From Chaetoderma sp. LZ-2023a (lineage: Eukaryota > Mollusca > Caudofoveata > Chaetodermatida > Chaetodermatidae), in NCBI GenBank assembly GCA_034401795.1, contig CM067373.1:38985669-39049668 (forward strand): a DNA stretch of 64,000 nucleotides, given 5' to 3'. Numbering within the stretch: the stretch's first letter is position 1; every line of letters begins with the position of its first letter. Below are positions 19,710-42,528 of this stretch, in pieces. Under the pieces are notes generated by a model. It made no database searches. It worked only from the letters and a program-made list of their open reading frames with translations, and was not told the DNA's origin. The translations under genes and the position numbers were made by a program.

Positions 19710-19780
19710 TATAATCTTCTGCCCCCCCCCCCCCCCCCAGGTCGGCCCCCACCAGCATGTGATACCATCAAAATCCCCTT

Positions 19781-19885
19781 ATTAGAGAAATGCAACTGGA
19801 TAGGTATACACGTCTGCGGTGTTGACATGAACATAAAAAACCCATATTAGAGAAACGCAACTGGATAGGTACACACATCTGTTAT
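19781..19885. repeat. short direct repeat upstream of the polymerase gene
   Basis: ATTAGAGAAATGCAACTGGA at 19781 recurs with one change at 19845, 64 bp apart, directly before the first ATG of the polymerase region. It may be a leader duplication. Confidence 0.6.
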
Positions 19886-22800
19886 GGACATTGATGAAGT
19901 ACTTCAAAATTTGGTGAGATTGTTGCAGCAGGGACTTAATAGCCGTACCACTTATGCCGAGAACCTGGCAGCTCTCCTTCCAGAGAAGCCAACCCCAGCC
20001 CCACGCAGGAAGCTGCCAACCACTCCCGAGAAGCCAACCCCAGGCCCATGCAGGAAGCGGCCAACCACTCCCGAGAAGCAAACCCCCGCCCTCTGTTCCA
20101 AGAAGCCCCCTCCACCCAGAGCTAGAAACCCCACCCAAGTTCACAGATGAGGAGATTGACAGGTTTCTTGATGCTATATTCCAGGAAATGAGAGACATAC
20201 TCCCAGGATTTGTGAAGGTCCCACATGCAATCCAGAACTATCTGCGGGGATAGGAATTTCCTGGACATGGGGGGAAAAGATCCAACAGCTTTCCTGGATA
20301 AAAACCTGGACAAGATCGAGAGGAAGTTGGTGGAAGAGGTCCTCGACCTGAAGGGGGTGAAGTTCTGGCTTGCTCTCAAGATCACCCTCCACAAGAAGAA
20401 GAACGACGGGACAGAGGTCACCACAAATCCCCTGTTCTGGTCTAAGCAGCATGCCATCCTGAAGGCAAGCGATATTAGCGAGGCTGTGAAGGAGGCCAAA
20501 GATAAGGTGCTGCAAAGCTTTAAGAATTACAACCGTGAGGGGTCTGGCTGGGAAGTCGACCAGGTCCATGCATTGTACCTCAACATCGCCAGATATCAAC
20601 CACAACGTGGTGGGTCATACATTGATCTCCCCCCCCCCCTTCGATTAAGCGAAAACGTGCCATGATTAATGTCCAGAACAAAGATGATGACCACTGTCTT
20701 CGCTGGTCTCTCTTGGCTGCTGCTTATCCTGCAGAGAGTAATTCCCAGCGGACATCGAAGTATTTAGGGCACTGGGACATGCTTGACTTCAGCGGTGTAG
20801 ACTCTCCAACCCCTCTCCACCAGCTTAAGCATGTTGAGCGGCAGAATGGCCTAGCCATTAATGTATTCAGGCATGACAAGGGTGTCTACCCACTGCATCT
20901 GAGTGAGGCTGATCCCGTCATTCCAAGGACAAATCTGCTGCTTATCGAGAAGGGTGGCAAGCAACACTATACCTGGATTAAGGACCTGAATCATCTGCTC
21001 TATGATCAGAGTCAGTATAAAGGGAGAAAGCGCTTCTGCGAGCGGTGTCTCCACTGTTATTCTCGCGAAGACCTTCTCATCAAGCACAAACCAGAGTGCT
21101 GCGGCATCAGTGACAGACCAATGTGCATAAGAATGCCTACAGAGGACAGGAAGATGCTACAGTTCACCAACCACCGCAAGCAACTCAAGGTGCCAGTCAT
21201 CATCTATGCCCACTTTGAAGCCCTAACAAACACGATTGAGGGGACAGAGGTGAATCCGGCTCAGAGCAGCACAGAGAAAACGCAACACCATGAGATCTGT
21301 GGGTTCTCATACATTGTGGTCCACTGTGAGGGTGTCAGTGAACCACCAGTGCTGTATCGAGGAGAAGATGCAGCTAAGCACTTCTTGGATCGATTGGCAT
21401 GGGAAGAGAAGATAACAGCCATGCTTGCCCACCCTAGGCTGATGGAGATGGCTAGAGAGGACTGGCAAGCTCATAAAACTGTGGTTAGTTGCCATGTGTG
21501 CGACAGACCATAAGATGGGGACAGTGTCAGAGATCACTGCCACATCACTGGTCTCTACCAATGCACACAATGTGTGTAATCTAAAGCTGAACCTCAACCC
21601 TAAAACCACCACCATCCTGGTTGTGTTCCACAACCTGCATGGGTACGATTCCCACCTCATCATGCAGGCCATCTCCCAAACAGAGAGACAGATCAACTGC
21701 ATCACCAACAATATGGAGAAGTACATCTCCTTCAGCCTCCGTCGGTTGCGGTTCATCGACTCGGCCCAGTTCCTCCCAGCATCACTTGACAAGCTGGTTG
21801 CCAGTCTCACAACGTTCCCACTTACAAAACAGTATGAGCCTAACACTGCCAAGTATGAGCTCCTGCTCCGCAAGGGAGACTATCATGACCTCTATCTGCG
21901 GTCTGACACTCTGCTCCTTGCAGATGTGTTTGAGAACTTCCGTATCACATGCCTCCAGCAGTAGCGTCTGGACCCAGCACACTATTACACAAGCCCAGGG
22001 TTGAGCTGGGATGCACTTCTAAGGAAGACAGGTGTGGAGCTGTAGCTCCTCACTGCCTACGACATGCATCTCTTCATAGAGAAAGGACTCAGGGGTGGTG
22101 TATCAATGGTCAGCAAATTCTATGCTAAGGCAAACAACCCATACATAGCTGGCTATAATCCACAACAACTGACAAGCCACATCATGTATCTGGATGCTAA
22201 CAATCTCTATAGCTGGGCAATGAGCCAACACCTGCCGAATGGGGTGTTTGAGTGGGTAGAGGACAATGATGTCAAAAAGATTACACAACACCCCAATCAT
22301 GATGAAAAGGGCTATGTCTTAGATGTTGACCTTGAGTACCCACAAGAGCTGCATGACATGCACAATGCCTACCTGCTGATGCCTGAATGGATGCAGGTGA
22401 AGGGAGAGTGGCTCTCAGAGTATCAGTGTGCATTGGGCAAGTCGATAGTGAAGACGGCAGCAGAAAAACTGGTGCCTAGCCTGAGAGACAAAGAACAGTA
22501 TGTTCTTCACTACCGCAACCTGAAGTTCTACCTTAGCCTGAGTATGAGGTTGAAGAAGGTGCACAGGGTTCTACGCTTCAATCAGTCACCGTGGATGGAG
22601 CCTTACATCCGACTAAACACAGAGCTCCATAAGAAGGCCAACAGCGACTTTGAGAAGGATCTCTACAAGCTGATGAATAACGCTGTCTTCGGTAAGACCA
22701 TGGAGAACTTGCACAAGTGAGTGGATGTCAAGTTAGTGTGGTTATCCGAGGAGGACAAGCTGCGCAGCCTAATAGCCAAGCCCAACTTCTCCCGGGCGAA

Positions 22801-23478
22801 GGTGTTCGATGATGATCTAGCTGCTCTCCACATGTGCAAGACGAGCCTGCTGCTGAACTGCCCTGTCTATGTGGGAATGTCCTCCTGGACCTCTTGAAGC
22901 ACCTCATGTATGACTTGTACTACAATGAGGTGAAGCGACTATATGGTGCTCACTGTGAGCTCCTGTAGACAGACACTGACAGCCTCCTGCTGGAGGTTCA
23001 GACAGAGGATGTCTTTGCTGATATGGCTGTGAGGAGCGACCTCTATGACACAAGCGACTACCCAGTAACACACCTGCTGCACAGTACTGCCAACAAGAAG
23101 GTCCAGGGCAAGATGAAGGATGAGTGTGCCGGGGTGCCAATCCAGATGTTTGTTGGCCTGCATCCGAAAATGTACTCCATCAAGCGGTTGGATGAACAGG
23201 AAGTCAAGACGGCAAAGGGTGTGCGCAGGGCTGTGGTTAGACAGATTCACCATGAGCAGTACAAGGAATGCCTCTTCGAGTGAAAGGTCTTCCACCATAG
23301 TATGAACATGCTGTGAAGTGAGGGTCACCACCTCTATGTTGTCTACCAAAACAAGACAAGCCTCAGCCCCTCAGACACAAAGCGATGGATCACTCCCAAT
23401 GGTATTCACACCCTGGCTTATGCTCACAAGGATGCCATCACTCCAATGGATGTCGAAGAGCTGCTGGGTAACGTATGA
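19884..23478 (+). pseudogene. pPolB: Polinton protein-primed DNA polymerase B, multiply broken
   Basis: Family B polymerase that would replicate the element. Order seen: proline-rich N-terminus; an N-terminal domain (20225-20665, KGVKFWLALKI, RGGSYIDLP); a zinc-knuckle-like CERCLHCYSREDLLIKH near 21040; the exonuclease I region at about 21200 (IYAHFEAL, with His where the family has Asp); exonuclease II (FHNLHGYDSHL); exonuclease III (YLRSDTLLLADVFE); palm motif A (YLDANNLYSWAM); motif B (KLMNNAVFGKTMENL); motif C (TDTDSLLLE). Stops or frame changes occur near 20149, 21513, 21962, 22045, 22718 and 22895, and a TAG at 22966-22968 replaces the residue just before TDTDS. The end (TGA at 23476) is tail-to-tail with the integrase. 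Confidence 0.9.
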
Positions 23479-23502
23479 GCATCATGTGACATCAACCAAC
23501 AG

Positions 23503-24812
23503 TCAAGGCTCGGTGTGGACACCATCTGGAGGATGTCTACTAAATGTAAGCACTCCTGGTGGAGGTAGCTGGATGTCTGTAGGGATAAGCTGGAGCGCCT
23601 CTCGTACAAACGGCCACCTAGGACTGCTCTTCGACTGTGCCATGTAGTATAGCGTAGGCTGTCCAGCTGTATCCACATACCTGTCAATCTTGTGTACATA
23701 TATCGACCAGTTGGGGTCAGTCGCCCGCCTACGTTCACCCTCCAACTCGCCAGACTCATACAAATACCAAACCAGGGAAGCGAACGGAAGTCTGTCCTCC
23801 GAGCACAGATCTTGAACAGAGCATAGTCATTCCGACTGTTGGGTCACAGAGGATCGCTGAATGGCATTGACTGGCTTCTGTCCTATCAGCCTAGTAACCT
23901 TAGCATTGGATCTCTCCAGCACAATGGGCAACCCTCTCATACATCATACTGATGTGGGAACAGCCTCTCTGCCAGCAGTGTCCGGTTCCACCGCTCGACA
24001 ATAGCCTGGGCATGGTGATGTCCCACCACCGCTCGACAATAGCCTAGGCACGGTGATGTCCCACCTCACCTCGCATAATCGGCACACCATGTTTCCGCAT
24101 GATGGCTGCAGTTTCACCTCTGAACCCCTTACCCTCATCCACTTGCAGCAACTCTGGCCACTAGAGGGGATTTTGTGGGTCCTCATAAGTACTCTGGAAC
24201 CCGGCCACCACCTGACCCGCAGACTTATCCGTGAGAGGCACTGTCGCTTTGTACCTGCTGGCTACATCGATGATGGTGATGGCGTACTTATAGGGTTTGC
24301 ATGTTCCTCTGGAACAGACCCGATCATGTGGAAGGAACAGCACATCAGCCTTATGGACTCTGTTCGGGATAAGTTCATCGAAGTGTGCATACTGAATGTG
24401 TCGTGGACGAGGTCTGTATATCTGCCACATCGCCTGCCTGGTGAGCCACTGGCTACCCATCTCCAAGGTGAATCTATGACCCTTGCGACGTGCAGCCTCG
24501 AGCAGCTGGTGAGGCTCACAGTAATATCCACCAGGTTGGTAGTACAGGGTCTCAAGAGGGGCGGTTGATGAACTCTCGGACTTCATCTCTGATGTCGACA
24601 CCTGTCCTCTCCTGTACAGCTCTGGCAAACTCTACACAGATGAACAGATGAACGTCAATCATCCGACAGTGGTCCCCGCGGCTGAACACCTCTTTGAATC
24701 CCTGTGAACACTGCTGTCTAATCTCTACAGCGCTGGCGTCATCACTGAAAGGAAGCTTATCGACAAAGGCTTGCCAGTTATGGGACTTGACCAGGTCATA
24801 GAGAGAAGCCAT
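23503..24812 (-). pseudogene. INT: Polinton integrase (retroviral type, DDE), broken
   Basis: Would insert the element by DDE strand transfer. ATG at 24812 follows a TTTAAG/TATA signal. The N-terminal part reads to about 24560, then shifts frame into HKADVLFLPHD (first Asp), a TIIDVASRYK strand and KSAGQVVAGF. At about 24160 it shifts again, and the segments for the second Asp and the Glu helix (IVERW-like) lie at 23990-24130. A 38-bp tandem duplication (23988-24063) repeats the Glu-helix segment. The C-terminal region (23503-23763: GELEGERRRATDPNWS, YYMAQ) matches the C-terminal, chromodomain-like part of Polinton integrases. It is inactive by frameshifts and the duplication. Confidence 0.88.
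23988..24063. repeat. 38-bp tandem duplication inside the integrase
   Basis: CCACCGCTCGACAATAGCCT begins at 23988 and again at 24026; the two 38-bp units differ at a few positions (GGGCATGG versus AGGCACGG). Confidence 0.88.
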
Positions 24813-24814
24813 CT

Positions 24815-24832
24815 TATATAGCACGTCTTAAA
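24815..24832 (-). promoter_or_regulatory. TTTAAG/TATA signal before the integrase
   Basis: On the minus strand: TTTAAG (24832-24827), then ACGTG, then CTATATA, two bases before the AGATGG that holds the start codon (24812). This is one of a repeated set in this element. Confidence 0.6.
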
Positions 24833-24879
24833 TGTTCGGCAGCCCAGATGACTGCGAGTGCTATCGCAACATACATGAG

Positions 24880-25296
24880 CTATGGACCGGCAACGCCAAA
24901 GAATGTGCTTACCACTGAGGCAATGGCTGGGATAACCTCAGAGATCTTCTCAACTCCGTGGAGAGCATTGTTGGCGATTTTGTGGAGCGTCTCGCCAGCC
25001 TTCATCGTGAACAGAGCAATCAGAGCCCCAACTGCCACTAGTGGGCCAAGAGAGCCCTTCACATATGTACGATAAATTCCCTTGGCTCGGTGGATTAGTC
25101 AGTGGGATTCCAGCTCTACATCTTCACCATAATAGTCCTCATCATAGGTGTCCTCACCACAGTCGTCATCATTGTCCTCGTCTTCATCAGTCATCCTCAT
25201 CATAGTCCTCAACTGGATCCTCAAATGCTTCCAGTTCATACCTTGCTTGTAGTTCCTGCTGACTATATGGTGAATTTAAATCACCTGTATAGACAT
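24880..25296 (-). pseudogene. Polinton small acidic/hydrophobic protein, broken
   Basis: The ATG at 25296 overlaps the opposite gene's ATG as CATG. A short conserved segment (NSPYSQQELQARYELEAFE) in a second frame is followed by a strongly acidic Asp/Glu stretch. After an in-frame TGA near 25105 comes a hydrophobic, alanine/valine-rich segment (GPLVAVGALIALFTMKAGETL) ending in IPAIASVVSTFFGVAGP. The layout suggests an acidic soluble part and one or two membrane helices. I recognise similar small proteins in Polintons but cannot name the function. At least one frameshift and one stop are present. Confidence 0.6.
25275..25292 (+). promoter_or_regulatory. TTTAAA/GTATAG signal before the 25295 gene
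   Basis: TTTAAA (25275-25280), six bases (TCACCT), GTATAG (25287-25292), then AC and ATG at 25295. The spacing is the same as at 34819-34836 on the other strand. Confidence 0.65.
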
Positions 25297-25690
25297 GGCA
25301 TCTGCAATCTTGAATGCAGGCGTCTTTGCATTGACAAACTGGGGTTTCAGCTTCGCTGACCATAAGGTGGCGGAGGTAGAGAGAAAACGCCCTAAGCAGG
25401 CAATGGAGAAGCTGTCTAAGGAGAAGATTGAGTACAGCAAGGCACTCAAGTATATGCACCAAAAGGAGGCACGCCGATGGCAACAAAGGGCTCAAACCAC
25501 ACAGAACATCTAAGATGCTGATGCGAGTCTCGATGAGTACTACGAGGTTGTAAAGCTCTATGAGCCAACACTGGACTATGAGGCATTAGGAGGTCAGGAG
25601 ATGGCCGAGGTCATAGTAGTAGTGGCTGCTGTAGCAGCAGTGGTAGCTGGGGCAGCTGCTGGAGTTATGCTCTATGTTCGTTTAAGCTGA
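25295..25690 (+). pseudogene. Polinton small protein with C-terminal membrane helix, one nonsense codon
   Basis: 131 codons in one frame, with a single TAA at 25511-25513 (after TTQNI). The N-terminus is MASAILNAGVFALTNWGFSF, the middle is charged and helical (VERKRPKQAMEKLSKEKIEYSKALKYMH), and the C-terminus is a long Val/Ala membrane helix (VIVVVAAVAAVVAGAAAG) before TGA at 25688. Similar NAGVFALTN proteins occur in Polintons; the function is unknown to me, perhaps a virion membrane or accessory protein. Confidence 0.7.
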
Positions 25691-28213
25691 ATACCAGTGG
25701 TGTGTGATACACTAACCTTTGCATATCCAAAGTACAGCACCGTTACTCCGACCAGGCGAGTGCCCCCTCGCTCTCCGAAGAGGTTCCCAATATGAAAGCT
25801 GAGTTGGTTGCCATGGTTAGGCGGGATGTCCCTTCCTCCGAGGTGGCACTGACCTTCGAGTGCCAACTCGAGATCCTCGTGGTCACTGGTCAGGCGGAGT
25901 AGGGCATATGGCTTTGTTTTCTGTCAACAGAGACAGCAATCATTGGTCCCAGCCACCACAAGCTTGAAGTCGTCTAGCTCCCCCACCTCCTGGACCACCC
26001 CTCCTTTCTGAACCAAGACTGCTACAGCTATGCAGGCTGAGGGACCTCGTTGCAATGTCAACTCTAGACGCTGGTTAGCCGTGGCCTGGGCCTGCTGATG
26101 CTCTTGCTCTACATGTAGGATTCGTTGACTAGAGCCCGCACGTTTTAGTTCCTGGTCATTCTCCTTAGGGCTGGGCGGTTCGGCCTAAAAGCAAACAGGT
26201 GATGGTATCACTAATAAAACCGGTATTAACAAAATACCGGTTTAAGGGGTTAGAATGATCGAAAATAATTTGAAATATGAAAATATGCCGTTTTCATTAG
26301 CTACAGTACATGTATTTTGTGATGTGACAACTGACGTAAATTGCCATGAAATTAGAATGGTAACTACGTACGACTGCTCACTTCAACGCTATCTATCTCA
26401 AAATAGTAGTTAAAATAAATAAAATAAATAAAATAAATAAAGTCTGGTTCATGTGATGTCGTGAAAATAACACTCTAACTACTAAAATGTTGATTTTCAA
26501 CACTGTTAGTATTTTGGAAAGCATAGTAAAATCTAACACGTGTAAGTAGGAACTCGGATATGAGAGCGAGCTTAGGCTCCTAGTAGAGTACCGTACATAT
26601 GGTTAGAGTTCGTATAACCACCTACAGTATGATCTAGTCTAGTAAGTCATGTGTTTGTATTCGAGTACTCGGTATTTAGTAATACTCCTCAATAAACTGT
26701 CGTTCAAGCGGGTGAATGTCATTCAGCACATAACTAAAGAGTAGTCATTTCCCGGAAATTATGCCCCAAGAATTCTCACAAAAAATGTGTTTGACTATTT
26801 TTCGTATAATAAAGAGATTATGATAATTTGACAACATAAACGCAATGATTCGTGAATCTAACTTAAATCTACTTAAATCAACACTCCGTACTTGAAGATA
26901 TACAAAGACGAAAAAGACCGGGCCATAAAACAAAACGAGGTGATTCTAACGCCTATCAAGCAGAAAAGTCATGTGATAAAAATACTACAAATTTCACTCA
27001 TAAAATTGATAGTAGCGAATATCCCGCCGGAAGAATTTATTAACAACCAATCACATTACGCCTGCTTGTATTTGAGAGGTTAAGAGGTGTATTTTACTTG
27101 TAACTACTCTGCCAACGTAAGAAGCGACTTAATCGTTTTCATTTCTCGGGCATTCAAGCAATTTGTCTCATATGTCTTACTCCGTGATGGATCATTTTAT
27201 GTTTGTCGAAATCAATGATTTGTTTGGATTGGGAGTTCATTGTATAGCGTCGTTGTTTTCGCAGCGCGTTTCTTGATTTTCTTTGTATCATGTCAGATTT
27301 GGAATCCCAATTAAACATAGTACAAACTCGAATTTAAAAAAGGATTATTTGTTGCAAAGAAGAAATTTAGATTTTCAAATTATTCAATCTTACATTGAAC
27401 CCACAGAGCTTACGTTATGGAAAATTCATTGCTGGCAAATCAAATCATATTTGCCGAGGGTCGTCCTCGGCTGATTTGTTGGGATTTCACCTACACCCTT
27501 GCTTTCCCACGGTTAATAGTTATAGATGACTGTACTTTATGTCTAGTAACAAATGGTTACACTAGATGATACTATTAAACTGCAAGTCAAGAACAAACTA
27601 GTTTAGGACAGTCACCAGATTTTGCGCATTGGCGATCTTACGGACGGTTTTTCGTTTTTTTATTTTCGTAATGGTTTTTAAACCATCCCCATAAAAATCC
27701 GTGAGACAGTGTGAAACCGGTATACTGCCCAGCCCTAATTCTCATCATGCCAGACCTGAAGTCACGGAGAGGTCATCATTATATCTGTAAGATATTCAGT
27801 GTACACCCGAAGGAACAGTTTGTCCTGCATCAAGGCCGGGTTCATGTGTGTGTTCTCGAGGAGGGAGAAGAGTGGCACCGCGACAGGTATTTCTACATCT
27901 GGTTGTAAGTCGAATTCTGTGAAGCCGTTATTACATCTGACGGCATAGTATACTTTTCCGTTCAAATAGGTGGTGTCCAGGGTGTTATTGCTCTGCATAA
28001 TCTCCCACCTGCGGGAGCTCTACCTTCTTGGCCTCTGTGCTCTTGAGCTTGAACTTGAGCGTCATGCTCCTAATCTCATGGATCTGTCCCAAGAGGGTGA
28101 AGTTGATGAACTTCCCCGGTGTGGATAGAGGGTTTGCATCATGGATACTAGGACTGTCAAACAGTCCTTCCAAGAATCAGTGTGGTGTGAGGCCACACGT
28201 TCAACTGCCCCAT
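25672..28213 (-). pseudogene. Polinton capsid-like (possible minor capsid) gene, split by an hAT-like element
   Basis: The frame segments at 27985-28173 (FINFTLLGQIHEIRSMTLKF), 27762-27998 (YYAVRCNNGFTEFDLQPDV, HMNPALMQDKLFLRVYTEYL), the stretch to 26166 and 25672-26166 are collinear and of one character once the insertion is left out, about 300 codons in all. The beta-strand-rich sequence and size suit a single-jelly-roll minor capsid protein of Polintons, but I infer this from position and style rather than a diagnostic motif. Lesions: a 1.57-kb insertion, TGA stops near 27762 and 25916, and a frame change near 28160. Confidence 0.6.
26166..27737. mobile_element. non-autonomous hAT-like DNA transposon
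   Basis: The left tip TAGGGCTGGGCGGT and right tip (reverse complement) TAGGGCTGGGCAGT differ at one base. They are flanked by the 8-bp ATTCTCCT (26158-26165) and ATTCTCAT (27738-27745), an 8-bp duplication with one mismatch, as in hAT elements. The 1572-bp interior is AT-rich, has no transposase frame, and contains AAATA repeats (26415-26440) and subterminal ACCGGT motifs. It lies inside a Polinton gene. Confidence 0.88.
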
Positions 28214-28239
28214 CTGGATGCTGTACATACTGCTGCATG

Positions 28240-28256
28240 TTTAAACATCTGTATAT
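28240..28256 (+). promoter_or_regulatory. TTTAAA/GTATAT signal before the 28269 gene
   Basis: TTTAAA (28240-28245), five bases (CATCT), then GTATATAC. The first ATG (28269) is about 12 bases downstream. Confidence 0.55.
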
Positions 28257-28268
28257 ACAGGTTTTTAA

Positions 28269-29104
28269 ATGGTGATGTTTGGTAAAGTTCTCCAGCAGAT
28301 CATCTTTGGAGAGCAGAAGAAACCTGTATCACCATCCAAGAAGAAACCAGTATAGCTGCGCATTGACAGGGTCTGACAACTACTTCGTGACATCAACATT
28401 ATCCACGAGGGAGCCAAGGTCCAACCTCCATTTGATGCGGAGATACTGACTACTGTAGAGGAAACGACACCCGCCCATAGTACGAATGAATTATTGACTC
28501 AGATGCTCTACCAGAAGCTTGACAGCGCCCAGGGCAGGTCACTAGACATCTCCCCAGGACACCCACTAAGAGTTCTGTAATTCTAGCTCTCCAGATCTCC
28601 TAATAGTAGGGAAGTGGGCTGGCGTATTCAGCCTCCACACTGATGATGAACACTGGATGTTGGATGCTGGATGCTATACACTATACAGGCTGGGGCCACA
28701 GATTACGTCTGAGAGGAGATCGGTGCAGCCGTGACTGAGGGCCATGAGGCTGGGCATGCCACTGGTCACACCGAAGGTAGAGAGGAGGGGTTGGCCGCCG
28801 GCCACAAGGAGGCCATTGAGCACATCTTCAACGAAAGAGGTGCGAGCGGCTCACGAGAAACGAGGCAGCATTTAGAATATTCCCTGCTGAGAACTATCAG
28901 GACTACCTCATCAAAACTGTTCTCAAGGCAGATGCTAAGAAGTCATGGCTGAAGTGGGTCTTCCGCGAGAGGTTTCAGAAGAAGAGAGTCATAGCATCTG
29001 ATCCTCAGTGGATAAAGTTTCAGAAACATTCTCAAGAAGCTCATGAAGTTCCTCAAGCTTCTGACGAAGTTCCTCAAGCTTCTGATGAAGTTCCTCGACC
29101 CTGA
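28269..29104 (+). pseudogene. Polinton gene of unknown function, degenerate
   Basis: Starts MVMFGKVLQQIIFGEQKKP, then stops within 30 codons. Open segments in other frames follow (FDAEILTTVEE..LLTQMLYQKL; EGHEAGHATGHTEGREEG near 28731; KKSWLKWVFRERFQKKRV near 28945). The end encodes three EVPQASD-type repeats and a TGA near 29102. The charged EG/AGH repeat and the C-terminal heptads look like a structural or scaffold protein, but I do not recognise the family. Confidence 0.45.
29043..29099 (+). repeat. 21-nt tandem repeats (EVPQASD)
   Basis: GAAGTTCCTCAAGCTTCTGA units every 21 nt, at least two full and one partial, in frame with the degenerate gene. Confidence 0.75.
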
Positions 29105-29149
29105 AAAAGCGTCACCACCACTACTACTGTCGCGGCTCAGCTTCCTGGG

Positions 29150-30070
29150 CTAACGCTTTTGCTTTAGCTTCCTGGCTGGATCCAGCTTGTAGCTGAAGTT
29201 TTCTGCTTTCTCCAGAGAAGGCTTGAAGCGGGACAGCTCACCTGTCTCCTTGTTGCTGAAGATGAAGAGGTATAGAGCTGCGACATTCTGCACACCTGCG
29301 ATGAAGTCTTGCTTGGTCTCCTTGAGGGTCAGGCTGTCATATATTGTCTCAGGAAGGGCACGAGCACTCTTCGAGCTAAAGTACAGGAGCCTCGCATTGT
29401 GCCGGATATCTGCCGATATCTCACGGGTGCACTTCTGAAAGCAGATGAAGACAGTGATCTTGGTGTGCCGAATGCATCTGGTGATGTTGCTGAGGTATGT
29501 GACTGTCTTCTGGTCCATCGCGGGGTCGTCGATAACTATAACAAGTGGTTCAGTTAGTCGAGCCACGAGCAGCTTTTCCATCAGCGCTTGCAGGTTGTGC
29601 GTCTTGGTGATTGGACCACTGTACCACTGATTGTTATTGTTGACCGCCTCAGCGGTGGAGTCGGACACCAGGAGGATGTAGCGAGACTGAAGATGTTCGG
29701 CGAGCAGGGCCCACAGCAAGATGTTTTTCCCATGTCCTGATGGGGCAATGATCAGCACCACCTGACTGGCATCATCTGGTCTACTGCTGTATGGCACTGA
29801 CATGTTGCCTGTGTGTGTGTGAAGGATGGTCAGCAGCTCTTCAGCCGTAGCCTCGTCTATATCTGGGAGACTAAATTACAGTACTTCCTGTACCAGCACA
29901 TTTGCCTGCTGTGTGGGTAGCATTGTACCACCGGCGGCTATGAAGGATGCGATAGAGGCATCAAGCATGAAATCCCAACAAAAGCTGAGAAGGTAACGCA
30001 GAGGGCCTGTTTCAGTGCCCTCAGTGTCTAGTACCTTGAGTGTCCATATGATGCAAGCTTGAGCAGCCAT
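29150..30070 (-). pseudogene. ATP: Polinton packaging ATPase (FtsK/HerA superfamily), one nonsense codon
   Basis: Would pump element DNA into capsids. One frame of 306 codons from ATG 30070 to 29150, interrupted once by TAA at 29876-29878. The P-loop reads VVLIIAPSGHGKN (Walker A, with Asn in the usual Thr/Ser place), Walker B is PLVIVIDDP, followed by ITVFICFQKCTREI (sensor-like strand) and a C-terminal basic tail. The N-terminal 64 codons are hydrophobic and may not belong to the core ATPase; translation could restart at MSVPYSSRP (29803), which would give a 217-residue ATPase. The Lys-Asn P-loop change could reduce activity. Confidence 0.82.
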
Positions 30071-30072
30071 GC

Positions 30073-30090
30073 TTATTGTGTGATCTTAAA
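30073..30090 (-). promoter_or_regulatory. TTTAAG signal before the ATPase
   Basis: TTTAAG (30090-30085), ATCACA, then CAATAA, two bases before ATG 30070. It is a weaker match in the TATA-like box. Confidence 0.5.
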
Positions 30091-30105
30091 CAGCAGGACA
30101 AAGAA

Positions 30106-30577
30106 TCACGACTTCTTCACCTCGGGTAGTTGGAGCTTTGCTGTTGCATTCGCTTGGCCATCCACCGTGATATGGCTCAGGCCGATGGTGCCTACCTTGA
30201 GATTCTCCCCATCTTGTTGGTATGAGCTCTGTGGTTTCAGGAGATCCTTAACCAGGTACTATGCGTAGCACTCGATCATAACCTTGATGGCACCAGCCTC
30301 ACCGACTCCGAGTATACGTCGCATCACTGCCCTGTCTTTGATGCCAATCCCCGTGTATACAGTCTTGGCCTTGTTTATGGCTGATTGTCTTACCGTGTCT
30401 GTTTCCGATGAGATCTCTGGCTGGGATGGTACCTCGGATCTCTCCAGGTTCTCCATTCTCATCGAAGTCTAGGAAGGAGATGGGGGCAACAGTCTCATCT
30501 GAACCGAGGCATGCCTTGCCCAAGTGAGCGAGATCACCCAGCTCTTTGCTCTCTAGGTCTGTGAGTGACAGACACAT
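30106..30577 (-). pseudogene. Polinton gene of unknown function, broken
   Basis: ATG at 30577 (MCLSLTDLESKELGDLAHLG) follows a TTTAAG/GTATAC signal. There is one frameshift near 30465 into VPSQPEISSETDTVRQSAIN...GEAGAIKVMIECYA, an in-frame TAG at 30259, then YLVKDLLKP to a TGA at 30106-30108. It is about 157 residues, soluble and mixed alpha/beta in appearance. It ends 16 bp before the ATPase signal. No family recognised. Confidence 0.55.
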
Positions 30578-30584
30578 TGTTGGT

Positions 30585-30602
30585 GTATACATATGTCTTA
30601 AA
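30585..30602 (-). promoter_or_regulatory. TTTAAG/GTATAC signal
   Basis: TTTAAG (30602-30597), six bases (ACATAT), GTATAC (30590-30585), then seven bases to ATG 30577. Confidence 0.65.
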
Positions 30603-30603
30603 C

Positions 30604-31260
30604 CTAGTCATATCCCCAGTGGAATAGGTGGGCATAGGTAGACCATGCGGTGGGCCAAAGAAATAGGTAGCAGTACTCAGGATACTGGCCCTCCCTGCAG
30701 GGGCATGCCTTGTAGGCTGACCACCATTTCTGGGAATTGCAAAACCTCAGTCCATGTGATCGACTATGCGCTACCGACTCTGGCATAGCCCGCCATGCCT
30801 CATAGGCTACTGTTGTGTCATGGACCTGCCAAGCTTCCATTATATATAGCATCTTAAAGCTGACCTGGGCCGTGATGATCTCGGCCATAGCACTCGTCGC
30901 TAGCCCTAGAACCGTGGCTTCCATTAGAGGGATGCGTTCGCCCATGATCTTGGCGGCAACAGTATAGGAGGCGCCACTGATGACGATCTTTGGAATTGAA
31001 CATGTTATTCCTAGAGAGTGGTCGACAACCATACTCGCCACTGTAGCGAGGACAGCGGCTCTAGCGGGAGGAATAACCTCATCAACACCCGTCATCTTCA
31101 CCACGGCCACATTCGTCACCATGTTACTGGCGACATGAATGGCCAGGGGCATAGCCTCTGTCAGTAGCTACTGGGTCTTGCTTTTGAGCAGGTTCTCCAC
31201 CTTCTGGAGATTCGCCTGGCTCCCCGGGAGTTGCTTTACAATCTGTACCGTTGACGTCAT
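30604..31260 (-). pseudogene. Polinton alanine/valine-rich membrane-like protein, one nonsense codon
   Basis: 218 codons from ATG 31260 (MTSTVQIVKQLPGSQANLQK) with a TAG at 31168-31170. The part downstream of the stop (from 31152) is a 182-codon open frame with hydrophobic stretches (ARAAVLATVASMVVDHSLGI, MEATVLGLATSAMAEIITA) and an aromatic, cysteine-containing C-terminus (CPCREGQYPEYCYLF). It could be a capsid-associated or membrane-active protein; no known domain recognised. It is preceded by a strong TTTAAA/GTATAC signal. Confidence 0.6.
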
Positions 31261-31378
31261 CGTTTAAGCTCTGAGTATACAATGCGTTTAAACGTATACG
31301 TTCTACCTCGAGAGCACTAAGCAGCTCTAACCAGTCTGCATCTGTCAGCTGCTTAGATTGGTACTCGGGAATATCCAT
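31124..31378 (-). CDS. small Polinton ORF, unknown
   Basis: Starts MDIPEYQSKQLTDADWLELL at 31378 (a second ATG is at 31390), helical for ~45 residues, then low-complexity PGEPGESPEGGEP. The 3' half overlaps the next gene in another frame and covers its promoter-like signal, so the natural end is doubtful. Confidence 0.45.
   Translation of the reverse strand: MDIPEYQSKQLTDADWLELLSALEVERIRLNALYTQSLNDDVNGTDCKATPGEPGESPEGGEPAQKQDPVATDRGYAPGHSCRQ
31275..31292 (-). promoter_or_regulatory. TTTAAA/GTATAC signal before the 31260 gene
   Basis: TTTAAA (31292-31287), six bases (CGCATT), GTATAC (31280-31275), then 14 bases to ATG 31260. Confidence 0.65.
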
Positions 31379-31382
31379 AACA

Positions 31383-31401
31383 GTATACATAGCAGCTTAA
31401 A
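31383..31401 (-). promoter_or_regulatory. TTTAAG/GTATAC signal before the 31378 gene
   Basis: TTTAAG (31401-31396), seven bases (CTGCTAT), GTATAC (31388-31383), ATG at 31378. It lies in the 14-26 bp gap between two divergent genes. Confidence 0.6.
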
Positions 31402-31404
31402 ACC

Positions 31405-31879
31405 ATGGACCTATGCCTCAGGTACTATGATGTCTTCCGCACCGAATTGAAGGGCTACAAGAAGAAGTCACCAGATGAGCTCGCCCAGCTCTCTAGCGCT
31501 GAGGTAACAGAGGAGCTGACAGCTGTAAAGCTCTACCTAGGATTTGGTAAGGGGCATATCTGTTTCGTTAAATACCTCATTATGGGCGGCAGTATCGTCG
31601 AGCAGCTCCTGCATCCTAAGGGATTCTACAAGGATCGGCAGTATCTGTCGGATGTGTTCCAGCAGTTGCAGGCATCCATGGCATCCCCTGAATGAGTTGA
31701 ATAAGGCTCTGCGCTACTACAAGCTTGAAAATGGCTGTACCACTGAACCATACAGTCCTTGGGTATGTATGCTGACAGCGTGTTTGGGTGCTGTCAGGCA
31801 GGCCAAGCTAGTTCAGGCAATCTCATTTGCCATGACCCCGCACCGGAAGATCTATTGCTCGAAGAGCTTGAACTACTAG
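31405..31879 (+). pseudogene. small Polinton gene, frameshifted
   Basis: MDLCLRYYDVFRTELKGYKK... is helical and charged (KKSPDELAQLSSAEVTEELT, MGGSIVEQLLHPKGFYKDRQ). It runs to a stop at 31695, then a second frame (ELNKALRYYKLENGCT...FAMTPHR) continues to 31879. It is divergent from the 31378 gene and ends against the convergent 31876-32259 gene. Function unknown. Confidence 0.5.
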
Positions 31880-32259
31880 TGGCGGAGAAGACGGGTGATG
31901 AGCACAGCAATAGCCAAACCTGACACCACTCGTAGGGCTATCATCCTGCTAGAACTGCCAGGCGGGGTGGTGGGTGTCAGCACGGGTCGCCGTTTGTCGT
32001 CCAGCACTCCTGCTGTTCCAGCGGTCGGAACGATGTTAGCACTGGCCCTCGTAGTAGACCATGGGGACCTAGGTGTCATGGGCATAGGGATGACATGCAC
32101 AGCTGCGTTGATGTCAGTGTTAAACCCAAGGTGCACACCTGGGAAATTCCCCTCAACTATCATGTTATTGTAGTCCCTGACCTTTAGATCCTCAACATTC
32201 ATGATCATATTGCTCGGAATAAGTCGTAGGTGTGGTGATATAGCAAAATCGAGCCTCAA
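31876..32259 (-). CDS. Polinton protein with C-terminal membrane helix
   Basis: 127 codons, intact. The first half is polar (IMNVEDLKVRDYNN), a proline-rich middle (MPMTPRSPWS, TPTTPPGSSS), then a probable membrane helix (IALRVVSGLAIAVLITRLL) at the C-terminus. Its ATG overlaps the stop of the capsid-like gene as ATGA, the tight coupling usual in viral gene blocks. Family not recognised. Confidence 0.6.
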   Translation of the reverse strand: MRLDFAISPHLRLIPSNMIMNVEDLKVRDYNNMIVEGNFPGVHLGFNTDINAAVHVIPMPMTPRSPWSTTRASANIVPTAGTAGVLDDKRRPVLTPTTPPGSSSRMIALRVVSGLAIAVLITRLLRH

Positions 32260-33224
32260 CGGGCCTTCTGTAAGGCTTGCTGGAACTTGGCAATGAGGCT
32301 ACTGGGATCTGCAACAATGATCATGTCCTCAACGAGACTGCTAAACATGGCCTGCACCTCTTTTCCGCTCACCCCATCTATGGAGTGGTGCAGCTTGGTC
32401 TGGGCTGTCAGGAGACAATACCATAAGGACTGGTTGATATGAACGAGCCCTGCTGGTGTGAGCCCTGAGGTTGTGTATGTGACAAAGTATTTCCACGCCT
32501 CTGGATGGTCCTGCCTGATTCCAGTGATATGCATATTCTGCACCCTCGCTCCGGGCTCTGAGTCTGGATTGAATGAGAATGTCGCTGTCTTCCAACGACC
32601 AATTATTTGGGGTGTTTGATAGGGGAAGCCTGAGTAGTCTCATCTTGGGTCGCCCTACATAATGCCTAGACCGCTGTTGTCTTCACCATGGAAACGATAG
32701 TCTGAGTGGGCGTTGAACTCTCGCTGGAGTCTACTGGCTGCTGAGAGGCTGTAGCTAGCGGTGCCAACCGGCTGCGGCTCAAAATCATTCATATCAGGCA
32801 GGCTTGCGCCCAGCTCGTGGAGGATTCATCTCACTGTGTAGTACACATGGAATCTGAGACACCTGGCAATGAGCACAGCTTCGGGGGTACCAGAATACAA
32901 GTGCAGCAAACCAGCGCCGATGCCGCATCCCGCTGTGGCACACCACACAGCAAAGTTCAGCTGTTGGTTCCACAACGAGAGATTCGGGCCTGCCATCCAC
33001 GTAAGAGCTTTCTTCGCATCCTTGATGGTGATTGCAAGGTTGGTCAGTGGTCGTGGATTGATGGAGCTGATGCAGGAATGCCCGTCGACTGTGATCGAAA
33101 TAGGTGTTAGGTCCGGTATGTCATCCAGGAGACCACGTGGTCCAGCTCTTGAGCGGGTCCAGAGTGTACCCAGGAGGGGCGGTTGGCTCTGGTCGATTGT
33201 CGTGAGGTTCATCGGGGATGCCAT
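32256..33224 (-). pseudogene. Polinton capsid-like gene, frameshifted
   Basis: ATG at 33224 follows a TTTAAG/CTATAG signal. The open segment to 32826 has ISITVDGHSCISSINPRPL, NFAVWCATAGCGIG and RFHVYYTVR, phrases I associate with Polinton/adintovirus hexon-like capsid proteins. It then breaks and continues in other frames (about 32640-32826) and as 32256-32543 (WKYFVTYTTSGLTPAGLVHI, a C-terminal helix). The total length of ~323 codons is shorter than a full double-jelly-roll major capsid protein, so the assignment to major or another capsid-related protein is open. Confidence 0.6.
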
Positions 33225-33243
33225 CTATAGTAGTCATCTTAAA
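33225..33243 (-). promoter_or_regulatory. TTTAAG/CTATAG signal before the capsid-like gene
   Basis: TTTAAG (33243-33238), seven bases (ATGACTA), CTATAG (33230-33225), immediately followed by ATG 33224. Confidence 0.62.
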
Positions 33244-33272
33244 GTCACTGTTCCAGCCGCAGACGCAACATA

Positions 33273-33891
33273 CTATTTGACACCGTAGAGAACTTCGTTG
33301 CGGCCCCGCCGCAGCATCTCGTTTTTTAACTCCTCCATGTCCACCCACCTGCTGGAGCCTTTGAGGTATAGCTGGCCAACTTTGGGTTTCTCTGTGCGGT
33401 ACAGGGTTTGGAGCTTCAATATATGGTGGTACTCATCATCACTGACCTGCCCATCCTCGAGAGTTTTGCTGACAGACTTGTCGATAGCCCATTGGCTGCT
33501 CTGTGCCAGTGTTACACACTTAGCATGTGTCTCTAGCTTCCTGGTGATCTGATGCTGTCCAACTGCCAAGCCGGTGGCCAGGACAGTACCAGAAAATGGT
33601 CACACCACCCTGTGGGATAGCGACGATAGCACCCACCCCTGTAGCAAGGGTGGCAATGGCAGCCACACCAGCACTGTCTCCAATCACACCTGCAGTTGTG
33701 GTTGTGCGTGCTAGACTGTTGTGGACTGTTTTAGATCGCCTGCGTGTTCTGCTGTACTTTTCTGTCTCATGAACAAGATTCTGTCTGATGATGTCAATCT
33801 GGTGGAGCCGCCACCCGTGTACTGTACCACCCTCCTCAGCTGCCAGAGCGGGATATAGTTCAGACTGCTTCCACCACTCCGATTTAGCCAT
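33273..33891 (-). pseudogene. Polinton protein with glycine/alanine hydrophobic core, frameshifted
   Basis: MAKSEWWKQSELYPAL at 33891, a basic stretch (KYSRTRRRSKTVHNSLAR), a hydrophobic glycine/alanine core (VIGDSAGVAAIATLATGVGA), one frameshift near 33590, then a second frame with TRKLETHAKCVTLAQS and SVSKTLEDGQVSDDEYHHIL to a TGA/TAG at 33273. The order (basic tail, paired hydrophobic segments, 'KHExxxxLAxxK...SDxEF'-style helix pair) is one I have seen in proteins of Polinton-like elements; the function is unknown. Confidence 0.6.
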
Positions 33892-33892
33892 G

Positions 33893-33910
33893 GTATACCT
33901 AGTTCTTAAA
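33893..33910 (-). promoter_or_regulatory. TTTAAG/GTATAC signal
   Basis: TTTAAG (33910-33905), six bases (AACTAG), GTATAC (33898-33893), C, ATG (33891). Confidence 0.68.
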
Positions 33911-34055
33911 CTTGTACCATCACCTGTAGGATCTGACTATGAGTCATTGTGGGATTCATCTTGGAGAGCCTGGCGAACCGAACCAGCTTATTCGTGTGGA
34001 GACATACCTCCCTCAAACACCCCTCATCCAGCATAATGTCAGGGGCCAGTTGCTT

Positions 34056-34445
34056 TCACAGCCATGACATCTGGAACTTCACCTTGTCACGCTGATAGTA
34101 AGCTCGCCGTTGGTAGGCTTTCTTGGATTTATACTCCACCCTCTCCTCTTCCAATTGCAAGACTTCTATAGACTCATCACACTCGTCATCCGAGAAAGCA
34201 TACAAGTTTGGCCCTATGATGCCTTCCTGCCGGATGAGGCTCTCCCATTCTTGGCCAGAGCTGTAGTCCCTTCGTCTCCTTGCCTCTTTGGCATTCTGTT
34301 CATACCAGCTCACCTGCTGCAGTCGCTCGCCCTCTTGTCGACAACGCATTTCCTGTACCGCTATATCTACCATCCCTGAGAAGGTGTGTGGCAGCTCCTT
34401 TTTCAACATCTCGGTGAAGGCTTGATAGGTCTGATATGATGTCAT
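34056..34445 (-). CDS. Polinton charged helical protein, unknown
   Basis: 129 codons, intact: MTSYQTYQAFTEMLKKELPH, a long charged helix (AVQEMRCRQEGERLQQVSWY), EQNAKEARRRRD, an acidic patch (SDDECDESIEVLQLEEERVE) and a basic end (KSKKAYQRRAYYQRDKVKF). It looks like a DNA- or capsid-binding scaffold. A degenerate TTTATG...CTACTT sequence sits upstream. No family recognised. Confidence 0.55.
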   Translation of the reverse strand: MTSYQTYQAFTEMLKKELPHTFSGMVDIAVQEMRCRQEGERLQQVSWYEQNAKEARRRRDYSSGQEWESLIRQEGIIGPNLYAFSDDECDESIEVLQLEEERVEYKSKKAYQRRAYYQRDKVKFQMSWL

Positions 34446-34531
34446 GATGGGGATAGGTCAATAAGTAGCAGCACCATAAACTCTAATTAGGCATCCGACA
34501 AACCATCCTTGTTGGCATATAGGTGGATCTG

Positions 34532-34816
34532 TCAAACAGGTGATTTATGTGGGTGAACATGTTGGGGCTGATCGCTTTCCACAGGTTGCTGGTGGCTCCT
34601 GGCAGATATACTATCACGCTCTAACCCAACTTCAGTCAGTGAGCTGTGGTAGGTACTCTCGGGTGGCGGATGTAACACATCGGCATGTACGTACGTGGTG
34701 GAATGCTGAGCTACCTTGAAGAGAACCCATTCTATGCGATACTGAACTAGTCTACCAACTAGAGATGGTCTGATGACATTGTCCCCATTTTGGAGTAGCA
34801 ATCGGACAATCGGCAT
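34532..34816 (-). CDS. small Polinton protein, unknown
   Basis: 94 codons, intact: MPIVRLLLQNGDNVIRPSLV, VQYRIEWVLFKVAQ, then a polar, histidine-rich end. It is preceded by a strong TTTAAA/GTATAG signal shared with the divergent gene at 34855. Confidence 0.55.
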   Translation of the reverse strand: MPIVRLLLQNGDNVIRPSLVGRLVQYRIEWVLFKVAQHSTTYVHADVLHPPPESTYHSSLTEVGLERDSISARSHQQPVESDQPQHVHPHKSPV

Positions 34817-34818
34817 GG

Positions 34819-34846
34819 CTATACATCCCGTTTAAACCCCTATATA
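34819..34846. promoter_or_regulatory. bidirectional TTTAAA signal between divergent Polinton genes
   Basis: The palindrome TTTAAA (34831-34836) serves both sides. Minus strand: TTTAAA, six bases (CGGGAT), GTATAG (34824-34819), ATG 34816. Plus strand: TTTAAA, CCCC, TATATAGATATA, ATG 34855. Confidence 0.62.
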
Positions 34847-35587
34847 GATATACAATGGAGCCTATAGTTGCTCACTAGACAGGTCTGGCCGATCTCGTGG
34901 ACGTGTACGATGTTGATGCTGCCAAGGTTAAGAAAAGTGATGGCAAGTCGTTTGTCCTCCAATATGGAGCAGAATCCAAGACATTCTCCCTCCATCCTGT
35001 CGGTGGAGATGGTGTAGAGGATGTCTTGAAGGAACGTCTGGGTCGAGAGAGGGATGGGGACAAAATAGTGTTCCGTTATGACTTCCCGTAGAAGAAGCTC
35101 ATCCTCAACCCCCTGATAGAACAGTCACTAGACAAGGTTAAGGATGTTAACACCTTGGATGCTGACCTCAGCTTTCATGTCTTAGAGCCGACTGTGAAGC
35201 ATGCCCCACTGATGTCAAATGATGGTGTGGTGTTGACCCTGGCAAAACAGCTGCAGGTAGTCTTCGAAAAGAATGTGGTGTGGTATCGCGTTGAACCTGA
35301 TAGTAACTGCCGAATGTGGGTGCCACTATATAGACCTCCAGCGGTTATTGACCTGGAGGTCAACCCACTCTCCACCACTGTGAAGAAGGATGGCATGGTC
35401 CGAAAGCAATATAACCGGGGGACATCTTTCCTGACCTATATAGGACAGGGCACAACCCTAGTTGCAGTTGGTCCTAGGATTGGGGTCACTGGAGGAAAGC
35501 TCTTGCTGCATCGCCCCATGAGGAAGCCATCAATATTCAGGATGCTATCCTGCGGATTAAATTTCTTTTTTCACGAGAGAGTTGATT

Positions 35588-35764
35588 CTTACCTCCCTAA
35601 TACTCTTTGATATTGCCAAATATCGACTTTCACTCAATAAACACTCAGATTTAAAAAAAGTAAGGTGCCCCTACTGGGCAGGTAGTCAGATGTCAGTCTG
35701 GCGGATGCCAGCCCCAACCTCGTGCATGCACAGACTAGTACTTCCTCTGACTAAATTTATTGGC
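35588..35764. repeat. DIRS C left inverted terminal repeat
   Basis: Inverted match of 42110-42263; the GCGCATGCGC palindrome is eroded to GTGCATGCAC here. Confidence 0.85.
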
Positions 35765-35834
35765 TGACACTATGAAACTTTAAGAAAGCCTGAAGACCGA
35801 GTCTCTGTGGGGCAGAGAGGTCGGGTCCGTATTA

Positions 35835-35934
35835 GCGAGGTAAGTATCAACTCTCTCGTGAAAAAAGAAAACCGTGATTTCATTTATTTCACTTCAAAAG
35901 TATACTTACCTCCCTAATACGCTTTGATATTGCC
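35835..35934. repeat. DIRS C internal complementary region
   Basis: Circle-junction arrangement as in A and B. The central palindrome (35858-35892) has the centre CGT instead of CTA and one arm mismatch. Confidence 0.85.
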
Positions 35935-36489
35935 AGAATTCGTCAGAGAATTCGGCGGGAGGGAGGCGAGGTCAAAAGACCAGCTCTTCCCTATGCGCTT
36001 TTCTGCGTTTAAGGCACTTAAACTTCTGAAATTGTGTGAAAACACAACCAGGGATAGATTTGAACATCGGCTAACACAACCGATGGCTGGGAGATGACCA
36101 TAAGTCATATGCGCTCCACCCCCCCCCCCCCCCCCCCACCCCTCCTCTTGGGAGGAAGACTGAATGACCTCAATGTACCATACGCTCTCTACGTACAAGT
36201 GCCATGTACTATAGGACATTAAACGAAAAGGCTTCATTTTCGTATACTCTCAATAATGAACCACATAAAACACGTACCATTACCATATTAATAATGAAGG
36301 GTCATGTGAAAATACAATTAACAATGAACAACACATAAACAAGACTGACCTTGTGGAAGTTGGCTGCTGTCATCATCTCCCCATAGGTGAAGACTGATGC
36401 AGTCCAAATAAGTGGTTGTTTCCATTGATTAATTGTGAAAATATATAAAAAATGAGGATACCTCATCAAAATATGTACACCTAGATTAG

Positions 36490-37520
36490 CTTTTCAAAAT
36501 CGATAAGGCAAGAGGATTCGAGGTGTCACGCATATAATGGTCGGTAAAATTGACTCACAGTGCCACTGATATAATGTCATTCACAGGGACACCATTAAAC
36601 AGGGCAGTGGAAGCCACTACGGCCCGGATACTGTGAGCCTTGGCCATGTCAACCTGTTTACCTGTGGCGGATTTATGACAAAATTGAATACACTCTACAA
36701 TCCACCTGGAAATGGTGTCCTTTGACGCTCTGCCGTGGGGTTCAATATACGACAATCATAATGCTGTTGGGGGCCATCCGCCATTCCTGAGTACCTTGTT
36801 TGTACCGGTTTAATGCTCGGACCGGACACCATGCTTTTGAACTAGGATCATATCTAGTCAAAACTGGCGAAAATATGGGTTGACCTGGATATTTCAGACT
36901 GATTTTTAGCCATGAAATTTATCCTAGGTAGAAGCTTAAGGCCTTCCCCTGTAACCACAAAATGGTCTGCCTCGGCTGATAAGACATGAATTTTACTTCT
37001 ACGCCTAGCCGAGGCTACAGCAATTAAAAAACAGTTTTAAATGTCAACATTTTCATAGAAATGGAACTAAGTGGTTCAAAAGGCTTATCACCTAGTACTT
37101 GAAGCACTAGAAATAAACTCCAAGACGGAATCACTGGGGGATTCCTTGGTCTTAGATTGCCCATGCCTTTAATTAAAGTATTTAATGTACTTACTTCATC
37201 ACTTCCCCTATTAGCCAAGCAAGGGATAACTGTCATTAAAGCTGACTTATAGCCAGCAATAGAGTTAGGCTTGAGGCTATAGGCATCATACAGGTGACAG
37301 AGGAAATCGGCTACTACCTGAATAGATGAATCCATTGGATTAATACATCTTTTGGAGCAGCATTCGGCAAATCTGTTGATTTTATAATTATATGCTCTGG
37401 AGGTTGACCCCCTTCTGGCTTGTGCCATGAACATGGCTGCTTGCTCAGAAAAGCCCTCCTTAATTCTAGATTCCTTGACAACATCCATGCAGTCAATCAG
37501 AACATTGACAGATTGTTGTG
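36490..37520 (-). pseudogene. DIRS C tyrosine recombinase, broken
   Basis: Homologous over its full length to copy E's YR. The HxxR box survives as AHSIRA (in 36555-36755). A short deletion near 36568 removes residues just before WHCESS and shifts the frame. Another frame break occurs near 37035 (ending LTFKTVF) and in the region 36760-37020. The N-terminal part (FSEQAAMFMAQARRGSTSRA) is intact. Confidence 0.82.
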
Positions 37521-39190: not shown

Positions 39191-39597
39191 CTCTTGGAAT
39201 TTGAGTCCAGACTGGCACCAGAGACAGTCGTGATGGTGGGCCTGATATCCAGTCGGGATAATATCCGACTGAAAGCCATCGCAAGATTAAACGGTCCTGA
39301 GTCACCGTCCCCACTCTTGCATGTGGTTAGCCAATCGGCCTCCTACTGGTCCACCTAGGGAGAGGTGGACATAAGAAGCACAAGAATGGCACTGTCTCTT
39401 GGTGCAGATGCACTGGAGTGGCTCTTATTATGGTAATCGATCCTTCAGGTACGATTACCATGACCAGATCCTCGCGCGCCATGGCCCACACCGCGCACAC
39501 CTCGGTGTGCGGGTGGCTGCCTGCGCCCCCCCCCCCCCGCTGCTGGCTGAAGCGCACGTAGCCATGGCCGGCGCTGCACTGGTGGCTGGCCTCTGAA

Positions 39598-41959: not shown

Positions 41960-42010
41960 CTGATAACGTGATTCTGGTCCTTCCTCAGAGGTTTTGGGAT
42001 GATCAGACAT
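41960..42010 (-). CDS. DIRS C gag leader exon (17 codons)
   Basis: ATG at 42010; MSDHPKTSEEGPESRYQ, ending in CAG at the GTGATT donor. The same 51-nt length and the SEEGP core are kept although the rest of copy C has diverged. Confidence 0.72.
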
Positions 42011-42109
42011 GATTTTTTGATGGATAAAGTATGTATTGCGCGAATGAGCAAAGAGAAATTTTCTTTGCAGATAAAAGCTTAAAGCATATGTCTCTTTGAG
42101 CCAATAAAT

Positions 42110-42263: not shown

Positions 42264-42528
42264 ATACTCTTGAAGTGAAAAGAGGGTGTCGCACTCCTCG
42301 AAGGCGAAGGGCTCATAGAAGTTGCTTGAGCGTGTCAGGCTTACAAGTTCGCAAACAGCCCATATTGTGCTAGAGCTGCGGCTTCTAGCCGGTGGTAAAG
42401 TGAAGCAGCTAAGACCTGTCCCTGAAGGCATGAAGATCAGCATCGAGGCCGGCAGAGGGCTTGATCTGACACAGGTATTTCTCGAGGAGTTCACCTTATT
42501 CGGTTTAACCCTCCATGTATAGGATGCT

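Follow-up and report, generated by a model that had tools for sequence, protein, structure and literature searches.

A two-box sequence signal at gene starts of a Polinton family in Chaetoderma: a candidate compact core promoter

Do the genes of a Polinton share a transcription signal of their own? Polintons are virus-like elements that are widespread in animals. The 64,000-nucleotide stretch of the Chaetoderma sp. LZ-2023a genome analyzed here (the window; contig CM067373.1, positions 38,985,669 to 39,049,668 of the forward strand) holds a decayed Polinton/Maverick at about 19358-43801, with inverted repeats at both edges. A prediction made from this sequence (the original prediction) had placed a short two-box motif in front of most genes of the element and had read it as a virus-style promoter. 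We found that the motif recurs at gene starts, both here and in other copies of the family. With a probability of roughly 0.7, we favor the explanation that it is a compact core promoter, in which transcription would begin at the TATA-like box or immediately behind it, leaving a very short leader.

A spaced pair of boxes at gene starts

The signal consists, on both strands, of TTTAA, a spacer of 7-9 nucleotides (nt) rather than the constant 6 nt originally proposed, and TATA; its full form is TTTAAR...S-TATA-S. TTTAA-N7-9-TATA is present at 15 sites within the Polinton and at 1 in the remaining 46,237 bases of the window. Across 300 dinucleotide shuffles of the Polinton parts, the count averaged 0.13 and never exceeded 2, versus the 15 observed, and the alternative spacings from 0 to 24 had 0-2 matches each in 20000-35300. 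With a weight matrix built from 13 sites, the 16 best matches of the whole window all fell inside the Polinton; the 16th, at 27949, was rejected as a chance match, being kept in 0/7 copies. When spaced pairs of a 5-mer and a 4-mer were enumerated in the window Polinton, the TTTAA/TATA pair was outscored only by G/C runs.

Start codons lie close behind most of these sites. Measured from the first T, the distance to the following ATG is 18-20 nt at 8/15 sites (null expectation, 6.5% of positions) and 16-25 nt at 12/15 (null, 21%); the latter include 31263 and 34831, where the ATG opens just 12 and 7 codons, respectively, in the window copy. The claim that the motif stands directly before start codons needs correction at 28240(+) and 31276(-), which have 29-32 nt between the first T and the ATG. 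Ten of the 11 positions originally listed carry both boxes, the remaining one, 30073-30090(-), having AATA in place of TATA. Five further sites had been missed, namely, 25264-25280(-), 28252-28269(-), 30841-30858(-), 31263-31279(+), and 42504-42521(+). The open reading frames (ORFs) differ from site to site, as expected from the earlier description of unrelated coding sequences behind the motif.

For one gene, the start codon itself can be assessed by protein comparison. The 33891 protein, in its intact form from copy L136, has four homologues elsewhere that are 30-35% identical, and the predicted proteins of all four have the same starting methionine and share residues close behind it. On this alignment, the ATG beside 33894-33910(-) is the true start of gene 33891. 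This ATG lies a few bases behind the TATA, which is therefore not a classical -30 box there. The predicted ATGs, 18-25 nt from the first T at 12/15 sites, do not fit the TATA-box layout of RNA polymerase II (Pol II) either, in which TATA precedes the start site and the whole ORF by about 30 nt. No homologues of gene 34816 were found.

The signal in other copies of the family

The 2.44-Gb genome contains many copies of this Polinton family. Copies L121-L143 were chosen for holding at least one exact motif match; the ATPase loci L149-L177 were not so chosen. Identity to the window is mostly 67-75% in L131 and L132 and 65-72% in L139. At the 15 sites of the window, the two boxes, with a spacer of 6-10 nt allowed, are kept together in 91/132 site-by-copy comparisons, ranging from 8/8 at 24815 down to 2/7 at 31263(+), and many copies are decayed. 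The motif count exceeded the maximum of 100 shuffles in 7/7 copies tested, with observed numbers and shuffle means of 10 and 0.02 (L131), 4 and 0.18 (L132), 5 and 0.27 (L133), 7 and 0.21 (L137), 3 and 0.04 (L139), 3 and 0.14 (L129), and 7 and 0.07 (L143). In L131, the motif was the most over-represented spaced pair (12 versus 0.15); a simple repeat dominates the ranking in L139, and other pairs lead in L133.

At least one site was present in 28/29 non-window ATPase loci, the sole one in L174 being a stretch just before the ATPase ATG (described below). A spacing of 8 nt leads in these 29 loci (101 matches; next, 30), in five divergent copies (21; next, 6), and in six nearer copies (29; next, 19). 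Part of the matches at 6 and 10 nt come from those same sites, through a TATATA register.

The two boxes differ in how well they are kept. For ten promoters in five divergent copies, with the window as the reference and rows of less than 60% identity dropped, identity to the window was 123/135 for TTTAA, 82/108 for TATA, and 93/184 for the spacer, as against 1021/1359 for coding sequence and 1092/1620 for the 60 nt upstream. Box 1 therefore clearly stands out against both the spacer and the coding sequence, and it is the spacer that drifts most. Genome-wide, the motif followed by an ATG was counted 758 times (371+387) and in reversed form 187 times (78+109). The corresponding counts for the control spacing N10-12 were 312 (162+150), a figure inflated by an unrelated repeat, TTTAAAGGTTATTGGGTGTATACAGATG, that recurs many times in the genome, and 220 (118+102).

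The ATPase loci also bear on the history of the family. From 6884 first-look candidates, 150 ATPase matches in the genome were scored; the frames of 120/150 (window included) are free of stops and 79-86% identical to the window. This suggests a large, possibly recent expansion of the ATPase-bearing family.

Site arrangements and gene content

The sites occur in three layouts: one-way sites, divergent pairs with a common palindromic TTTAAA, and dyads with a common TATA. At the one-way sites, the sixth base is G in 6/7 (C at 42504), and the distance from the first T to the ATG is 18-25 nt. On the minus strand, these are 24815..24832 (TTTAAG; ATG 24812, 20 nt from the first T; kept in 8/8 aligned copies, with the ATG changed in L131), 30586..30602 (ATG 30577; kept in 4/8), 30841..30858 (ATG 30840; kept in 4/8, one inside a TA repeat), 31384..31401 (ATG 31378; kept in 5/7, one inside a TA repeat), 33226..33243 (ATG 33224; kept in 4/8), and 33894..33910 (ATG 33891, the start methionine discussed above; kept in 7/11). 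The plus-strand site 42504..42521, a TTTAAC variant with its ATG at 42524, lies beyond a retrotransposon-like insert and is kept in 4/10. At three positions in other copies (L130, 937; L134, 5475 and 5868), the TATA-like box passes into an extended TA microsatellite, as though the repeat had grown out from the box.

In the two divergent pairs, 25264/25275 and 34820/34831, the TATA boxes face outward from a single palindromic TTTAAA. The first comprises 25264..25280(-), with the next ATG at 25239 (kept in 7/9), and 25275..25291(+), with its ATG at 25295 (kept in 8/9). The second comprises 34820..34836(-), with its ATG at 34816, and 34831..34846(+), with its ATG at 34855 and a frame broken early in the window copy; each is kept in 11/13. 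The start codons at 34816(-) and 34855(+) are 38 bp apart, with the symmetric double site in between.

The dyads share their second box. Sites 28240..28257(+) and 28252..28269(-) have TATATA in common and are each kept in 6/7; the ATG is at 28269 for the former and at 28248, or at 28238 in longer frames of the copies, for the latter, the long frames of the copies beginning 28-31 nt from the first T. Sites 31263..31279(+) and 31276..31292(-) have GTATAC in common. The former is kept in 2/7, yet it is present in many ATPase loci; the latter is kept in 4/7, with its ATG at 31260, 32 nt from the first T and just past the opposite box. The gene at 31260 overlaps the 31378 ORF in another frame, and an initial classification of 31276 as an internal site was dropped, since this gene start lies behind it.

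The polymerase region carries a different sequence at its start. As originally noted, the signal is absent there, with 0 two-box sites in 19358-24800. Just before the first polymerase-region ATG, at 19884, the stretch 19843..19886(+) has another sequence, CATATTAGAGAAACGCAACT...ATAGGTA, which is conserved in two other copies (2/4 fetched pieces align there). In one of these two, L146, TTTAA-N8-TATA occurs at 1618, outside the aligned part. The 19843-19886 sequence may represent a second promoter class, and the suggested early/late distinction is compatible with the missing motif and the other conserved sequence at the polymerase start. In the window, part of the 19843-19886 sequence recurs immediately upstream.

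The ATPase and integrase genes do not bear out what was said of them. No two-box site accompanies the ATPase ATG, which overlaps the tail of the gene in front of it. That gene has a degenerate site, 30073..30090(-), with its ATG at 30070. Its box 1 is kept; its box 2 (AATAA in the window), which overlaps the stop codon of the next gene upstream, varies as TAATAG, AATAAG, and GTATAG, a full TATA being present only in L131 (1/8). Within the preceding gene, about 55-85 nt before the ATPase ATG, a TTTAG/TTTAA-N9-TATAG stretch matches fully in 5/29 loci and may reflect coding constraint or a weak site. The 24815 site precedes a small ORF in a frame other than that of the integrase fragment, and its designation as an integrase promoter is therefore unproven.

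The Polinton measures 24.4 kb between its outer arms and about 16 kb once both inserts are removed, which agrees with the 15-20 kb characteristic of Polintons. Its long terminal inverted repeats (arms 19446-19661 and 43511-43726) are 92% complementary. A 1.6-kb insert at 26164-27737 was deduced from a gap in the alignments of other copies, and a 6.7-kb repeat element at 35585-42265 interrupts the Polinton; the latter, perhaps retrotransposon-like of the DIRS type, has inverted terminal repeats and further occurrences at about 10-14 kb and 45-50 kb of the window. Among the genes, fragment 22064-22717(+) passed the cutoff for PF03175 (family B DNA polymerase of the protein-primed type; 31.2 bits; cutoff, 25.8), and its assignment as protein primed is that of the Pfam family match. 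PF00665 (the retrovirus-type rve integrase) scored 14.8 bits in both the window and L136, under its cutoff of 32.6. PF04665 (the A32/FtsK-type packaging ATPase) scored 14.7 bits in the window, under its cutoff of 22.8; the 54% identical ATPase relative P0002 does carry PF04665. No Pfam capsid match to a double jelly-roll protein was found among the 10 ORFs submitted, and the structure prediction of one gene product had a predicted local distance difference test score (pLDDT) of 30, too low to use. AATAAA and ATTAAA together occur 0 times on either strand in 14.2 kb of the interior (19741-26163 and 27738-35540), versus 5.2 expected. This depletion is not clearly seen in other copies and for that reason is not main evidence.

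Candidate functions of the signal

The virus-style promoter originally proposed is, in the form of a compact core promoter, the explanation that fits best, given the conservation of box 1 over a drifting spacer, the divergent ATGs 38 bp apart, and the true start of gene 33891. Most non-polymerase genes of the Polinton family in the window would use it. Box 1 (TTTAAR), lying some 12-17 nt ahead of the predicted start, would be the recognition element, and box 2 (S-TATA-S) would be where the DNA opens, with transcription starting at box 2 or a few bases after it. From such predicted start sites, leaders of about 1-8 nt would result, or about 11-15 nt at the dyads. The palindromic nature of TTTAAA, GTATAC, and TATATA allows box 1 or box 2 to serve two promoters at once; with shared boxes, divergent start codons would fit within some 20-55 bp. 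The different sequence upstream of the polymerase gene would allow two expression classes.

Several observations weigh against this proposal. The polymerase start and the ATPase ATG both lack a two-box site, and no long plus-strand ORF lies directly behind 31263(+), so that a dyad half need not have an obvious gene. The copies share common descent, both boxes are not kept in 41/132 comparisons, and L121-L143 favor the chosen site, each having been picked by an exact motif match. TATA (76%) is kept no better than coding sequence (75%), only better than the spacer, in a comparison whose reference, the window, favors its own boxes. Among 136 distinct sites in the copies, the ATG lies at 18-20 nt in 38 and at 26-34 nt in 42, and 37 have none within 34 nt. 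TTTAA without TATA also has an ATG at 18-20 nt in 44/256 cases; the contrast in ATG distance is therefore modest.

The boxes could instead be an operator that binds an element-encoded or host regulator beside separate, weaker Pol II start elements, controlling timing rather than serving as the core promoter. Palindromic boxes and dyads are indeed typical of sites for dimeric proteins. We nevertheless consider an operator quite unlikely, given the narrow box-to-ATG distance at most one-way sites and the little room for a second core promoter between start codons 38 bp apart. The tight packing of the tandem genes, some of which overlap, together with the absence of AATAAA/ATTAAA (0 versus 5.2 expected) from the window interior, unclear as it is in other copies, would suit boxes acting in the mRNA, through translation start, re-initiation in long transcripts, or trans-splicing. 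Such an RNA-level signal is decidedly improbable: one box is common to divergent genes in both orientations, and the start codon of the ATPase, which is probably a downstream cistron, is not accompanied by a site. TTTAA and TATA each resemble TATA boxes, and either could be imagined about 30 nt before a start site; translation would then begin at an ATG farther on. This is contradicted for gene 33891, whose homologues start at the methionine beside the motif; ORFs 31378, 33891, and 34816 also have no later in-frame methionine in the window copy, although some other copies have one, and we regard a classical TATA box as very improbable. An origin by chance or through the spread of repeats, for which the common descent of the copies might speak, is next to untenable, being contradicted by shuffles of the window Polinton and of the copies that never reach the observed counts and by the differing ORFs behind the sites and differing spacers within one element.

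A compact core promoter would have partial counterparts in known systems. Phage-type single-subunit RNA polymerases (T7/SP6) use promoters that form one compact block, a recognition part plus a TATA directly before the start; the Polinton layout is like these in block and distance and unlike them in their rigid spacing and dedicated polymerase. The vaccinia TAAAT initiator sits near the ATG, and the yeast cytoplasmic virus-like element pGKL is linear, with protein-primed replication. According to one account, transcription from the vaccinia intermediate/late initiator TAAAT starts inside a short AT-rich box, as proposed here, although the sequence is another one and the polymerase is virus encoded (PMC6211774). 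The same account describes an upstream conserved sequence (UCS) before each pGKL ORF, usually 20-40 nt from the ATG, with the sequence ATNTGA; the RNA polymerase that reads it is encoded by the element itself and may be of poxvirus-like origin (PMC6211774). The UCS resembles the Polinton sites as a short promoter element at ORF starts; it differs in that ATNTGA is said to precede every ORF, whereas the Polinton sites have another sequence, no scan for ATNTGA having been made, and are missing at the polymerase start. Mavirus and the endogenous mavirus-like elements (EMALEs), which are relatives of Polintons, likewise have a short motif upstream of their genes, thought to be recognized by giant-virus transcription factors (PMC8547959). 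The mavirus-type motif, the one compared here (other EMALE types carry other motifs), has a TCTA core in AT-rich flanks and occurs in elements of protist hosts, unlike the TTTAAR...TATA of the Polinton (PMC8547959).

Wider searches brought no second lineage into view. All 150 scored matches of the P0002 ATPase query belong to the same family as the window, so that the search did not extend to a second Polinton lineage. Among viral contigs, no relatives were found with the polymerase, integrase, or ATPase as query, and GTDB genomes and plasmids gave none for the ATPase. The palindromic form of the motif was found in at least 120 stretches and was rejected; these look like AT-rich chance, since none had more than 3 sites with an ATG among the matches listed. 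By title and abstract opening, no report of such a signal in animal Polintons was found in the open PubMed Central literature, in line with the original prediction; nor did the papers searched yield anything on what activates Polinton genes. Adintovirus-like elements with VLTF3 are described from an animal genome that also holds giant-virus insertions (PMC11244446). A profile search for VLTF3 (PF04947) gave no match here, with a control that matched nowhere either.

It is possible that host Pol II, with a start-site element, reads the compact promoter. More tentatively, and in our estimate unlikely on the sequence evidence, this Polinton family might not be transcribed like a host gene: a non-host polymerase would start at the TATA-like box, the polymerase gene being host driven and early and the rest forming a late regulon served in trans. 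Such a non-host polymerase would come from a helper virus, the element's own factors, or an organelle or phage-type enzyme, and the element would act like the virophage of an animal virus. The signal offers a handle for seeking the polymerase that reads such promoters, and an early/late program becomes testable through the division between the polymerase gene and the remaining ones. With a 17-18 bp signal at most of its genes, start sites in this Polinton family would be predictable to within a few bases, and gene starts could be annotated.

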